A stretch of 21,208 nt of DNA. Origin: a virus. Each line of letters begins with the position of its first letter. Position 1 is the first letter of the stretch. A model generated the notes under the pieces. That model was not told the DNA's origin and searched no databases. It worked only from the letters and a program-made list of their open reading frames with translations. The stretch spans positions 1-21,208 of IMG/VR virus record IMGVR_UViG_3300027704_000199; one strand, given 5' to 3'. The position numbers were made by a program, and so were the translations under genes. Shown here piece after piece: positions 6,756 to 21,208 of the stretch.

Positions 6756-7222
6756 TGGCTTCAGGAATGTTAATGGGCGCTGGAATCGGCGCAGCAACAA
6801 GTTTAGCAACGGGAAATGACCCACTTCAGGGCGCTGCACTAGGTGGTGCTAGCGGTGGCTTGGGGGGAACAGCAATGAGTTCAGCACCAACTTTTACAGG
6901 GGCAACATCAATGATGCAAGCACCAACAATTATGAACGCTGGGGCTGGTGGTGCGATGGGTGGTCTAGGTGGTGGTATAGGTGATATGGCATCAAATGCA
7001 ATGGGTGGCTTCACAGATATGACTGGTATGACAGGTCAAGACTTAGGCGCTATGGCTTTTAACAAAGGTGTAAATGCTTTAGCTCAACCACAACAACAAC
7101 AACAACCGCAGTTAAATGTACCACAAGCAAGCATATCAAGACCTCAATTCCAACCAGGAATGCAAGGTGGTGGTATGCTATCTTCCAATCCTATGCAAAG
7201 AAAAAGACAAGGACTCTTATAA
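6755..7222 (+). CDS. Gly/Ala/Met-rich small virion protein
   Basis: A TAATGG overlap couples this gene to the previous one. The 155-residue product has about 100 residues of glycine zipper-like Gly/Ala/Met sequence (GAGIGAATS, GGASGGLGG), then a run of glutamines near residue 113-118 and a basic C-terminus (MQRKRQGLL). Glycine-zipper segments can insert into membranes, which suits a protein that helps form the DNA translocation channel at infection. That function is inference. Confidence 0.55.
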   Translation: MASGMLMGAGIGAATSLATGNDPLQGAALGGASGGLGGTAMSSAPTFTGATSMMQAPTIMNAGAGGAMGGLGGGIGDMASNAMGGFTDMTGMTGQDLGAMAFNKGVNALAQPQQQQQPQLNVPQASISRPQFQPGMQGGGMLSSNPMQRKRQGLL

Positions 7223-10222: not shown

Positions 10223-10485
10223 TGGAGCCAATTACATTAATATTCTTATCAGGCCTAGTCTCTGGAATTGTGGTGGGAGATGCTCTCGATCCAATAGGCT
10301 TATCTGATGGCGACAATCACAATGTTGTTAAAGAATGCACAACTAAAACTACTAGATCTAAGGTATATGATAAGGAATTAAAGGAATATATCTCTAACGA
10401 ATATGTAGAAGAAATATGTGTAGGGCGATATGTACCCCCTGATAGACCTATCCTTAACGCAGTAAAGAACAAAATAGCCCATTAA
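10222..10485 (+). CDS. Small membrane-anchored late protein
   Basis: The start overlaps the previous stop (TAATGG). The 87-residue product has one hydrophobic segment (about residues 4-20, with GLVSGIVVG) followed by a polar domain with two cysteines (KECTTKT and EEICVGR). It is the last gene of the late block, and its stop codon lies in the loop of the terminator. Such small N-anchored proteins can be lysis accessory or tail proteins; I do not recognise it. Confidence 0.65.
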   Translation: MEPITLIFLSGLVSGIVVGDALDPIGLSDGDNHNVVKECTTKTTRSKVYDKELKEYISNEYVEEICVGRYVPPDRPILNAVKNKIAH

Positions 10486-10500
10486 TAGTGGGCTTTTTTT
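10476..10500 (+). terminator. Rho-independent terminator of the late block
   Basis: A 6-bp stem AGCCCA/TGGGCT with loop TTAATAG is followed by seven thymines. It sits directly at the end of the last structural gene and just before the promoter cluster, so it insulates late from early transcription. Confidence 0.9.
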
Positions 10501-10512
10501 GGTTTAAAACAC

Positions 10513-10540
10513 TTGACATATGTTTTATATGTGCTATAGT
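10513..10540 (+). promoter_or_regulatory. Early promoter P1 with inverted repeat in the spacer
   Basis: A TTGACA box is followed after 16 bases by TATAGT. The spacer contains a perfect inverted repeat, ACATAT (10516-10521) and ATATGT (10527-10532), overlapping the -35 box. A dimeric repressor could bind there and block RNA polymerase, but no repressor gene is visible. Confidence 0.75.
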
Positions 10541-10558
10541 GTGTATATTAGATGGAAA

Positions 10559-10580
10559 TATTAATTGAACCTAATTAATA
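10559..10580. repeat. AT-rich 8-bp inverted repeat downstream of P1
   Basis: TATTAATT (10559-10566) and AATTAATA (10573-10580) form perfect 8-bp arms around GAACCT. It lies about 15-30 bases after the predicted P1 start site, so it could be an operator or a small RNA hairpin. Confidence 0.5.
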
Positions 10581-10598
10581 AATAAAGTCTAAAAAGAG

Positions 10599-10627
10599 TT
10601 GACAAGTAACAAGAAGTATGTAATAAT
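10599..10627 (+). promoter_or_regulatory. Early promoter P2
   Basis: TTGACA and AATAAT are separated by 17 bases and preceded by an A-rich stretch that could act as an UP element. The downstream start region (GGTTTTGTTAGATAGGAA) resembles those of P3 and P4. Confidence 0.75.
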
Positions 10628-10629
10628 GG

Positions 10630-10692
10630 TTTTGTTAGATAGGAAAAGGAGTGGCATAGGGGCAAAGCCCCAAAACCCAGTCTCTAACAAAA
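10630..10692 (+). other. Long-range stem enclosing a GC hairpin between P2 and P3
   Basis: TTTTGTTAGA (10630-10639) pairs perfectly with TCTAACAAAA (10683-10692). Within it, GGGGC/GCCCC (10659-10663 and 10667-10671) makes a tight hairpin with an AAA loop. The outer strand begins near the predicted P2 start site, so a P2 transcript would begin with this fold. No open reading frame is seen in it. Confidence 0.55.
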
Positions 10693-10705
10693 AGTAAGAA
10701 AAGGC

Positions 10706-10734
10706 TTGACAGAAGTAAAAAAACCTGATACAAT
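10706..10734 (+). promoter_or_regulatory. Early promoter P3, extended -10
   Basis: TTGACA and TACAAT are separated by 17 bases, with TG one base before the -10 box (extended -10). An A-rich stretch precedes it. Confidence 0.8.
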
Positions 10735-10784
10735 GGGTTTGTAGGATAAAGAAACAAGCAGTAGAAAGAAAAGTAATAAAAAGC

Positions 10785-10812
10785 TTGACAATGTAGCAAA
10801 GTATGATATAAT
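10785..10812 (+). promoter_or_regulatory. Early promoter P4, near-consensus
   Basis: A perfect TTGACA is followed after 16 bases by a perfect TATAAT with an extended TG. It is the last of the four tandem promoters and lies about 155 bases before the first hammerhead cleavage site. It probably drives the RNA-punctuated small-gene operon. Confidence 0.85.
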
Positions 10813-10818
10813 GTTTAC

Positions 10819-10962
10819 ATTGAGTAGGAAGAGCAAAGTGCAATCGGCTCTATAAAATACCCGGTCAAAACGGGAAACTTCTGAAAGGAAGATTGGGACC
10901 AGAACCTAGGCGCAGAACATCGCAGCTACACAAGATCGAAACCACATAGTTTCAACGTGGTC
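10819..10962 (+). ncRNA. Structured leader RNA released by hammerhead cleavage (putative)
   Basis: From the predicted P4 start site to the hammerhead cut lie about 144 nt with no open reading frame. Visible helices are GAGC/GCTC (10831-10834, 10847-10850), CCC/GGG (10860-10862, 10872-10874) and CTTC/GAAG (10878-10881, 10888-10891). GGTC (10863-10866), in the loop of the second helix, can pair with GACC (10897-10900) to give a pseudoknot. Cleavage would leave this RNA with a 3' hairpin (stem III of the ribozyme) and a 2',3'-cyclic phosphate. I do not recognise it as a known riboswitch or ncRNA class. Confidence 0.4.
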
Positions 10963-10990
10963 AGTGTCTTTTTGGCACTCTGATGAGATC
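10934..10990 (+). ncRNA. Type II hammerhead ribozyme 1
   Basis: All invariant core bases are present. Stem II is the open stem: GATC (10934-10937) pairs with GATC (10987-10990). GAAA follows at 10938-10941. Stem III is CCAC/GTGG (10942-10945, 10957-10960) with an 11-nt loop. The A10941-U10961 pair and C10962 form the cleavage site, so the cut falls between 10962 and 10963. Stem I is AGTGTC/GGCACT (10963-10968, 10974-10979) with a TTTTT loop. The core CTGATGA is at 10980-10986. The opening on stem II defines the type II permutation, known from bacterial, phage and marine metagenomic sequences. It lies in the leader of the 94-residue gene. Confidence 0.93.
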
Positions 10991-11311: not shown

Positions 11312-11363
11312 GATCGAAACCCTCTTTGGAGGGTCTGCAATTTAATATTGCACTGAAGAGATC
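11312..11363 (+). ncRNA. Type II hammerhead ribozyme 2
   Basis: Same permutation as ribozyme 1. Stem II is GATC (11312-11315) with GATC (11360-11363). GAAA is at 11316-11319. Stem III is CCCTC/GAGGG (11320-11324, 11329-11333) with a TTTG loop. U11334 and C11335 precede the cut between 11335 and 11336. Stem I is TGCAAT/ATTGCA (11336-11341, 11347-11352) with a TTAAT loop. The core is CTGAAGA (11353-11359), which keeps CUGANGA because position 7 is free. Stems I and III differ in sequence from ribozyme 1 yet pair fully, so the two copies show covariation. It lies between the 94-residue and 48-residue genes. Confidence 0.92.
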
Positions 11364-11532: not shown

Positions 11533-11605
11533 TTATGGTCAAACCTAACCCTTGTCGTAGCAAGGGATTTTGGCATAAAACCTTTAAGTATGAAGGGGAA
11601 ATAAA
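11533..11605 (+). ncRNA. Unrecognised structured RNA element, copy 1
   Basis: TTATG/CATAA (11533-11537, 11574-11578), CAAA/TTTG (11540-11543, 11569-11572) and CCCTTG/CAAGGG (11549-11554, 11561-11566) form one rod-like hairpin with loop TCGTAG. The 29 bases at 11577-11605 are identical to those of copy 2 and contain a possible mini-ORF ATGAAGGGGAAATAA (MKGK). The element lies between a stop codon and the ribosome binding site of the next gene. It could be a processing signal, translational regulator or promoter. It does not match the hammerhead core. Confidence 0.55.
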
Positions 11606-12104: not shown

Positions 12105-12134
12105 TTCACCACGAGCCTTAAAATGCGTTATACT
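12105..12134 (+). promoter_or_regulatory. Promoter of the tmRNA-like RNA
   Basis: TTCACC (12105-12110, four of six) and TATACT (12129-12134, five of six) are 18 bases apart. Six bases after the -10 box lies G12141, the first base of the acceptor stem. Transcription could therefore start exactly at the mature 5' end, without RNase P. Confidence 0.5.
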
Positions 12135-12140
12135 GAATAC

Positions 12141-12218
12141 GGGGGTGCTATGGTTTCGACAGTATGTAAAATTCATTTAGCATATTGGACGCGAGTTCAA
12201 TTCTCGCCACCTCCACCA
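12141..12218 (+). ncRNA. Minimal tmRNA-like RNA lacking the mRNA-like domain
   Basis: The 78-nt RNA has all parts of a tmRNA tRNA-like domain. The acceptor stem GGGGGTG/CACCTCC (12141-12147, 12208-12214) contains a G3-U70 pair (12143-12212), the alanine identity element, followed by A73 and an encoded CCA (12215-12218). The D-loop analogue holds the tmRNA signature GGTTTCGACAG (12152-12162). The T arm is GCGAG/CTCGC with loop TTCAATT (12191-12207). In place of pseudoknots and tag-coding region there is one hairpin: AGTATG/CATATT (12161-12166, 12181-12186) extended by TAAA/TTTA (12167-12170, 12176-12179) with loop ATTCA. The order is not permuted. It resembles, by convergence, mitochondrial tmRNAs that lost the coding part. 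It should accept alanine but cannot encode a tag. It ends nine bases before the ribosome binding site of the next gene. Confidence 0.8.
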
Positions 12219-12237: not shown

Positions 12238-12495
12238 ATGAGAAAAACGCCAGTAAATAAATACTCTAAAGTAGAATATAGAGTAATGGGTTGGAGATTC
12301 GATGGTAACGGAGATAAAGTAATAAAAAAAACAAGCTCTTTATCTACAGCAGATGATTGGGCAAACTCAAATTCAGAATACTGGATTGAAAAGTATAAAG
12401 ATGGCGAGTATGTAGATGATGTTGCTTGTGATAACAATTACGAGTATGATGAATATGAAGATGTTGGCTATAGTGCTGATGTTGGAACTTATTAA
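12238..12495 (+). CDS. Small acidic protein downstream of the tmRNA-like RNA
   Basis: The ATG follows AGGAG with a 14-base start region (AGGAGAAAGTTATG) that recurs exactly at the gene beginning at 12597. The 85-residue product has a basic, aromatic N-terminal half (MRKTPVNKYSKVEYRVMG) and a strongly acidic, tyrosine-rich C-terminus (YEYDEYEDVGYSADVG). The acidic tail could mimic nucleic acid. No family recognised. If the RNA upstream is matured at its 3' end, this mRNA would lose its 5' leader and start within 20 bases of the ATG. Confidence 0.75.
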   Translation: MRKTPVNKYSKVEYRVMGWRFDGNGDKVIKKTSSLSTADDWANSNSEYWIEKYKDGEYVDDVACDNNYEYDEYEDVGYSADVGTY

Positions 12496-12513: not shown

Positions 12514-12584
12514 ATGGGGAAACCAAAGTCGTTGATATGACTGCGGTTTCATTAAAAAACCTTTAAGTATGAAGGGGAAATAAA
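12514..12584 (+). ncRNA. Unrecognised structured RNA element, copy 2
   Basis: The fold parallels copy 1: GAAACC/GGTTTC (12519-12524, 12545-12550), then AGTC/GACT (12527-12530, 12539-12542) with loop GTTGATAT. The stem sequences differ from copy 1 but pairing is kept. The segment 12556-12584 is identical to 11577-11605, and the upstream TATGG...AAACC is shared too. It also lies between a stop codon and a ribosome binding site. Confidence 0.55.
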
Positions 12585-17425: not shown

Positions 17426-17671
17426 ATGGCTGAAGAATATTCAAATGAAAACTCATTCGCACTATTTAAGAATGACAAAGGCGACAACGACGCAAGACCT
17501 GATTACACAGGAAATGTAACTCTACCTGACGGGACAGAAATGCGTATGGCGGCATGGATAAAGGAGTCTAAATCAGGGCTTAAGTTTTTAAGTGGTCGCT
17601 TATCTGAACCACAACCTAAGGCTAATGTAGCAAATGCAGCAGTTGAAGGCGAGGATGCAGTACCATTCTAA
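17426..17671 (+). CDS. Small SSB-like protein with acidic tip
   Basis: AAGGAG precedes the ATG at 17426. The 81-residue product has a compact beta-rich region (DYTGNVTLPDGTEMRMAAW, then SGLKFLSGRL) and ends with EDAVPF. That ending resembles the acidic PF tip with which bacterial single-strand binding proteins recruit partners. The body is short for an OB fold and resembles DUF736-type proteins. Position between exonuclease and primase domain supports a single-strand DNA role. The primase-domain frame opens inside its last 25 bases. Confidence 0.55.
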   Translation: MAEEYSNENSFALFKNDKGDNDARPDYTGNVTLPDGTEMRMAAWIKESKSGLKFLSGRLSEPQPKANVANAAVEGEDAVPF

Positions 17672-20620: not shown

Positions 20621-20862
20621 ATATAGTAAACGAAGTAGATTATCAATATGATGAGGGCAATGCAATGACAAAACAAGTAGGTGGAAATCATTACTCTAAA
20701 CTAGCTATTCAGCCAGTAGAGTATATAAATGCAAATAAACTTACTTATTTACAAGGTAACGTTATTAAGTATGTAACAAGATACAAAGATAAGAACGGGC
20801 TTGAAGACTTACAAAAGGCAAAGCATTACATTGAATTATTAATAGAACTAGAGGAAAAATAA
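20617..20862 (+). CDS. DUF3310 family protein
   Basis: The 81-residue product contains GGNHYSKLAIQPVEYI, then LTYLQGNVIKYVTRYKDKNG and a terminal helix LQKAKHYIELLI, the standard DUF3310 pattern found in many phages and often labelled a nucleotide kinase without direct proof. GGAGGA precedes the start, and the TAATG overlap couples it to iscU. Confidence 0.85.
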   Translation: MNIVNEVDYQYDEGNAMTKQVGGNHYSKLAIQPVEYINANKLTYLQGNVIKYVTRYKDKNGLEDLQKAKHYIELLIELEEK

Positions 20863-21208
20863 TGGCTTATAGCAAACAGGTGTTAGATCATTACGAGAAC
20901 CCAAGAAACGTAGGAAGCTTAGATAAAGCTGACCCTAACGTTGGAACTGGTATGGTTGGTGCACCAGCTTGTGGTGATGTTATGAAGTTACAGATTAAAA
21001 TTTCTAACGATGTTATTGTAGATGCTAAGTTTAAGACTTATGGGTGTGGCAGTGCTATTGCATCCTCATCATTAGTAACAGAGATGTTAAAGGGCAAAAC
21101 ATTAGACGAAGCCCAAAACATTAAGAATACAACTATTGTTGAAGAGTTAGCATTGCCACCAGTTAAGATTCATTGTTCTGTATTGGCTGAAGATGCTATC
21201 AAGGGAGC
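20862..21208 (+). CDS. iscU: IscU-type iron-sulfur cluster scaffold, 3'-partial
   Basis: The first 115 residues are visible and the frame runs off the right edge. The start matches bacterial IscU closely (MAYSKQVLDHYENPRNVG). The three cluster-binding cysteines are present: C37 in GAPACGDV, C63 in YGCGSAIASSS and C106 in KIHCSVLAEDA, with the D39 that modulates cluster transfer. The LPPVK motif that binds the HscA chaperone is intact. So it should build [2Fe-2S] clusters with host IscS and HscA. In the phage operon it is an auxiliary metabolic gene; iscU-type genes are known in marine viral metagenomes. Start is the overlapping TAATG. Confidence 0.95.
   Translation, partial: MAYSKQVLDHYENPRNVGSLDKADPNVGTGMVGAPACGDVMKLQIKISNDVIVDAKFKTYGCGSAIASSSLVTEMLKGKTLDEAQNIKNTTIVEELALPPVKIHCSVLAEDAIKG

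Follow-up and report, generated by a model that had tools for sequence, protein, structure and literature searches.

Almost all bacteria have a tmRNA; the phage locus described here carries a version of 78 nt. The window, by which we mean the whole stretch of 21,208 nt analysed here, holds on its plus strand at 12141-12218 a match to the Rfam tmRNA family RF00023 that scores 81.1 bits in cmscan against a gathering threshold of 47 (E 2.2e-30). A covariance search of the 21.2-kb record alone recovers the same site (E 5.1e-34) and no second tmRNA elsewhere in this record, which is itself a linear fragment. The alignment spans model positions 1-374, with 302 of the 374 columns deleted, namely those of the coding domain and the pseudoknots. 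The RNA begins with the 5' strand of the acceptor stem, GGGGGTG (12141-12147), which contributes G3 of the G3-U70 pair and has its partner at 12208-12214, as read from the sequence and from pairing in the family. The tmRNA D-loop signature GGTTTCGAC follows at 12152-12160 (sequence and Rfam alignment). A short P2 hairpin at 12161-12186 takes the place of the coding domain and pseudoknots, supported by covariation among 95 family members and four close relatives. The stretch 12187-12207 comprises the GGAC junction (12187-12190) and a perfect T arm, GCGAG-TTCAATT-CTCGC, both visible in the sequence and the Rfam alignment and backed by covariation. The 3' strand of the acceptor stem, CACCTCC with U70, closes the RNA together with A73 and an encoded CCA (12208-12218; sequence and Rfam alignment). 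GAC and GGAC are only 26 nt apart and the intervening bases fold as a single hairpin; the 10 bp ascribed to it by the first-pass annotation are about right, the minimum-energy fold (-24.4 kcal/mol; z -3.0 versus shuffles) having 8+3 pairs with a bulge.

Compared with a canonical one-piece tmRNA (ssrA, RF00023), the window RNA shares the parts of the tRNA-like domain (TLD), that is, the G3-U70 acceptor, the GGNTTCGAC loop, the GGAC junction, the T arm and CCA. In contrast, the mRNA-like domain with its resume codon, tag reading frame and pseudoknots is missing, and P2 is one short hairpin. In length and layout (unpermuted, without a coding domain, about 65-85 nt) it agrees with the TLD-only, CDS-less form recorded for mycobacteriophage DS6A. 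Two other assignments were rejected. A permuted two-piece tmRNA would not have the order 5' then 3' seen here, and the corresponding model RF04321 gives only 23 bits, below its gathering threshold of 47. A tRNA-Ala does not fit because one arm is missing, the D stem is absent and ARAGORN makes no tRNA call; it reports neither a tmRNA nor a tRNA at 12141-12218. Sequence and predicted fold identify the window RNA as a tmRNA of which only the TLD is left. The first-pass annotation had read it in the same way, and the parts that it named (acceptor stem with G3-U70, A73, CCA, D-loop signature, perfect T arm) are each visible in the sequence. It had also set two observations against its own reading, a lack of homologues with the same fold and a full tmRNA elsewhere in the genome; many same-fold homologues occur in viral contigs, and there is no such full tmRNA as far as the 21.2-kb fragment shows.

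The first-pass annotation's claim to know of no phage RNA of this form has to be withdrawn, since DS6A was entered as 'TLD only' as early as 2014 (Hudson, Lau and Williams, PMC4131195; tmID 11587 of the tmRNA Website). DS6A is a different phage with a different host, and we compare it by description only: a phage RNA with little beyond the tRNA-like domain. It is the sole phage of such form named in PMC4131195 and PMC11915505, so that the form was previously known essentially from one case, which has been likened to the CDS-less form of about 65 bp of two plastid genes (PMC11915505). The 2025 tmRNA database holds nine 'standard, no CDS' sequences among 97,179, and 79 phage tmRNAs (PMC11915505); phages beyond DS6A may be among those nine, for example BRock with its RefSeq record. 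CDS-less tmRNAs of organelles (mitochondria, RF02544; Mallomonadaceae plastids) likewise consist of the tRNA-like part without a tag frame. However, their SmpB is nucleus-encoded in known cases and the mitochondrial genes are usually permuted, whereas the phage TLD-only RNAs are unpermuted and occur in phages without smpB. Full-length and permuted tmRNAs are also phage-borne (Pelagibacter phage Mosig, Stenotrophomonas and Streptomyces phages), but these retain their coding domain and are able to tag, unlike the window RNA. Hence, the TLD-only phage form is already known and the window RNA adds to a barely populated kind. The novelty lies in how broad the family is and in how strictly its charging signal is kept; within the open-licence literature we found no report of family size, of spread over unrelated phages or of strict charging-signal conservation.

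The breadth emerged from pattern scans of viral contigs. Scan 1 asked for TTCGAC, 8-38 free bases and a GGAC-T-arm motif, with acceptor stem and hairpin unconstrained, and matched 63 viral contigs, where about 0.3 would be expected from base counts by our own estimate. A looser scan 2 forced U70 and A73, and two further scans covered longer gaps. At least 199 matches were left after a structure filter (at least 6/7 acceptor pairs, at least 4/5 T-stem pairs), and at least 125 unique RNAs, 64-85 nt long, have 7/7 acceptor pairs and 12-36 bases from GAC to GGAC. At least 100 of the TLD-only RNAs differ at less than 85% identity and serve as the representative set. When the RNA is masked, the 100 representative loci can be sorted into 73 groups between which there is no 200-bp stretch of DNA similarity, and locus GC ranges from 36 to 70%. 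Such RNAs are thus spread over many unrelated phages. Among 84,980 bacterial and archaeal genomes, a scan of this type made 72 matches, of which a single one is a true TLD-only RNA, in a Mycobacterium genome bin (L118); nearly all others represent the 3' end of a full tmRNA that happens to have a TTCGAC before it, and a few are chance matches. Given so few expected matches, and a cellular scan nearly empty of true cases, a chance origin is rejected. Several phage matches were discarded, those from Alcaligenes, Achromobacter, Pseudomonas, Xanthomonas, Acinetobacter and Tunturiibacter phages turning out to be permuted full tmRNAs, and those from Lactococcus and Mycobacterium one-piece full tmRNAs.

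Selection on the fold can be judged best from the P2 hairpin, which was absent from every search pattern and therefore provides an independent covariation test; in the acceptor and T stems the result is biased towards pairing by the filter. The first six P2 positions form on average 5.34 of 6 pairs, compared with 2.61 (sd 0.12) after the 5' half of one sequence is joined to the 3' half of another. Among 95 members, double changes lie far beyond 500 shuffles at all six P2 pairs, at acceptor pairs 4-6 and at T-stem pairs 1-4. The window RNA and its three close relatives keep 21 of 21 pairs in all four; nine of these pairs have both sides changed among the four RNAs, and 0-1 do so when the partner is slid. 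We therefore regard the TLD-only RNAs as a family that, on this comparative evidence, is under selection as RNA and is no relic. The charging signal is stricter still. G3-U70 is an established identity element for alanyl-tRNA synthetase, and in all 100 representatives pair 3-70 is G-U and base 73 is A, while pairs 4-6 occur as four or five types each. The acceptor filter kept paired stems only, and A-U or G-C at 3-70 would have passed. Scan 1 forced neither base and is thus a fair test; its 36 unique sequences all carry G3-U70 and A73. In a MAFFT alignment some 5' ends are misplaced, giving A-U and C-U at 3-70, and the anchored alignment has G-U in all. CCA is encoded in 38 of the 100 representatives, and in the remaining ones the host would have to add it. 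The strictness of G3-U70 next to variable pairs 4-6 suggests that alanine charging of TLD-only RNAs is selected for. This lends indirect support to the earlier proposal that the window RNA could be charged with alanine. Charging would appear to matter, because a mere SmpB sponge should not need G3-U70.

The surroundings of the RNA fit expression early in infection. Four near-consensus sigma-70-like promoters on the plus strand at 10513-10812 (promoter scan), the last of them TTGACA-16-TATAAT, are read as marking where the early region begins; they are preceded by a terminator at 10476-10494, and the RNA lies 1.3 kb downstream of them. The small ORFs around it belong to no known families. One of these (12238-12495, +; from the ORF list) starts 20 nt past the CCA behind the ribosome-binding site AGGAG and has no family above cut-off. 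Promoters, terminator and small ORFs together make the locus look like a phage early region. A candidate own promoter, TTCACC-18-TATACT (12105-12134, +), ends 7 nt 5' of the RNA; it is weak, with 9 of 12 consensus bases, and similar sites are no commoner than in shuffled sequence. In one relative (L180) the TLD-only RNA also lies within the early region, and in four others (L024, L035, L045, L061) it is flanked by homologues of the genes that the window has at 17426 and 18081. Relatives thus retain the RNA but not its position. Two proteins, with 46% and 38% identity, point to Methylophilales phage Venkman as the closest isolate; it gives no tmRNA match, so that the window RNA appears to be accessory. 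In 50 related phage records, many of them fragments, we found no SmpB, a full tmRNA in one and a tyrosine integrase in six; a TLD-only RNA that uses SmpB at all would therefore require that of the host.

The window contains other elements. Two hammerhead ribozyme candidates, at 10934-10990 and 11312-11363, each lie just 5' of a ribosome-binding site that belongs to a small early ORF and have the layout GATC-GAAA-stem III-TC-stem I-CTGANGA-GATC; Rfam recovers one of them, below cut-off. L180 has two candidates as well (6928-6995 and 7082-7158, minus strand), with GTTC/GAAC stems, and no further ones turned up when 2.66 Mb of collected loci were scanned with a descriptor. An exact 29-nt repeat, AAAACCTTTAAGTATGAAGGGGAAATAAA, without an Rfam match, occurs at 11577-11605 and 12556-12584, each copy with a possible hairpin before it and a ribosome-binding site and small ORF after it. 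A gene for a NifU/IscU-like iron-sulphur scaffold (phrog_8429, E 4e-39) is located at 20862-21206 of the window.

TLD-only RNAs are also present in four cultured Streptomyces phages, pSt2308, LuckySocke, GiJojo and BRock (57-64 bits), where they sit inside tRNA arrays. The four records carry no tmRNA annotation for them, and that of GiJojo shows a hypothetical protein across the site. Other reduced or combined forms were seen besides. Streptomyces phage Riptide (L340, about 770-850) has a diverged TLD-like RNA, without an Rfam match at E 1e-4, in which the acceptor and the CCGCACGCGG hairpin can still be recognised but neither GGTTTCGAC nor GGAC is left. Reduced tmRNA-like RNAs of phages also come in a second size class of 120-140 nt, with 70-89 nt from GAC to GGAC (L289, L290, L291, L294, L295, L300, L301, L305, L306, L308, L313, L314, L318); it has conserved-looking internal elements such as CACAGCAAATACGG, and some members permit a short GCA-start frame, ANTAGLTE*, a candidate mini-tag. 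A record of 136 kb (G043; L343, L344) holds two TLD-only RNAs, at 42520-42602 and 109671-109753. Another of 123.6 kb (G032) holds a 392-nt full-length tmRNA (L341, 289-680), whose ARAGORN tag SPEYRIRLLTNTKW is atypical and uncertain, plus a separate TLD-only RNA (L342).

How might such an RNA act? In the scheme that we propose, transcription in the apparent early region would be followed by trimming to 78 nt, and host AlaRS would charge the RNA with alanine via G3-U70, A73 and CCA. Having bound host SmpB and EF-Tu, the alanyl-TLD would either sequester SmpB or occupy stalled ribosomes to which it brings no resume codon, so that fewer nascent chains would be tagged by host tmRNA in the infected cell. 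Expression, maturation, charging, binding of SmpB and EF-Tu, inhibition and a benefit to the phage are the steps that we infer. That the alanine-accepting TLD acts as a decoy of host trans-translation is the best supported of the readings, though to us an evenly balanced proposition; the first-pass annotation had suggested a decoy or inhibitor too, which is plausible. In its favour we count the TLD-only architecture, the covariation, the kept G3-U70, the lack of a phage SmpB, the single cellular case and a precedent for inhibition: as PMC4131195 and PMC11915505 relate it, citing Mao et al. 2009, a DS6A-like TLD molecule, chargeable or not, strongly inhibits E. coli tmRNA, perhaps via SmpB titration. 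Against it we count that Venkman has no tmRNA match and the RNA seems accessory, and that G032 combines a full tmRNA with a TLD-only RNA, which would mean that tagging is not always unwanted by a phage. Moreover, the inhibition as quoted in PMC4131195 is independent of charging, and a pure SmpB sponge would thus leave the strict G3-U70 unexplained.

A charged RNA that enters ribosomes accounts better for this strictness, and it may serve rescue without a tag: the alanyl-TLD with host SmpB would enter the stalled ribosome and take the nascent chain, followed by release through ArfA/RF2 or ArfB or by addition of untemplated alanines, with no degradation tag. The CDS-less tmRNAs that mitochondria have kept together with SmpB are believed to assist where mRNAs are incomplete (PMC11915505). 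We found no biochemical precedent, however, for a chain being released once it has been transferred to a lone TLD, and peptidyl-tRNA hydrolase occurs in 0 of 44 records. Small GGQ-motif RF-1 domain proteins of 120 and 122 aa were noticed (L345, 2353-2715; L346, 1075-1443), one of them about 0.4 kb from a TLD-only RNA. As dedicated release-factor helpers they were rejected, being present in 2 of 44 records and 1 of 40 controls, with no enrichment. We consider tag-free rescue unlikely, if well worth keeping in mind; it shares with the decoy the need for a charged, SmpB-binding TLD, and the sequence evidence fits both. In 26 of the 100 representatives the TLD-only RNA has a tRNA gene no more than 1 kb away, and in the Streptomyces phages it sits inside tRNA arrays, where anti-nuclease roles are known for tRNAs. 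The RNA might be aimed outside trans-translation, as a decoy or substitute tRNA-like RNA directed at a host nuclease that targets tRNA or tmRNA or as an alanine donor off the ribosome. We hold this to be improbable: the tmRNA-specific D-loop signature and GGAC are kept, though the search pattern partly required them, and a plain tRNA-Ala would do equally well. Prophages often integrate in ssrA and carry its 3' end, and several scan matches are such 3' fragments (L004, L025, L036, L059). An attachment site, or a functionless decayed remnant of a full tmRNA gene, is nevertheless already refuted for the family and barely conceivable. An attachment site would present the 3' end alone beside an integrase, whereas both ends are present and paired, covariation is strong, an integrase is found in only 6 of 50 records and the RNA is kept in relatives despite a different genome position.

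At least 125 such RNAs over many unrelated phages, in which the charging pair is never lost, point to a common phage action on ribosome rescue. From the comparative data, TLD-only RNAs probably interfere with, or redirect, the host rescue of stalled ribosomes. It is possible, although we would lean against it for now, that charged TLD-only RNAs constitute a widespread viral counter to trans-translation, entering stalled ribosomes and blocking tagging or freeing ribosomes untagged, possibly with the addition of untemplated alanine. Such a counter, if true, would have been overlooked because gene finders skip TLD-only RNAs. Since host strains are available for growing the Streptomyces phages LuckySocke and GiJojo, a shut-off or redirection of trans-translation by phages is directly testable.
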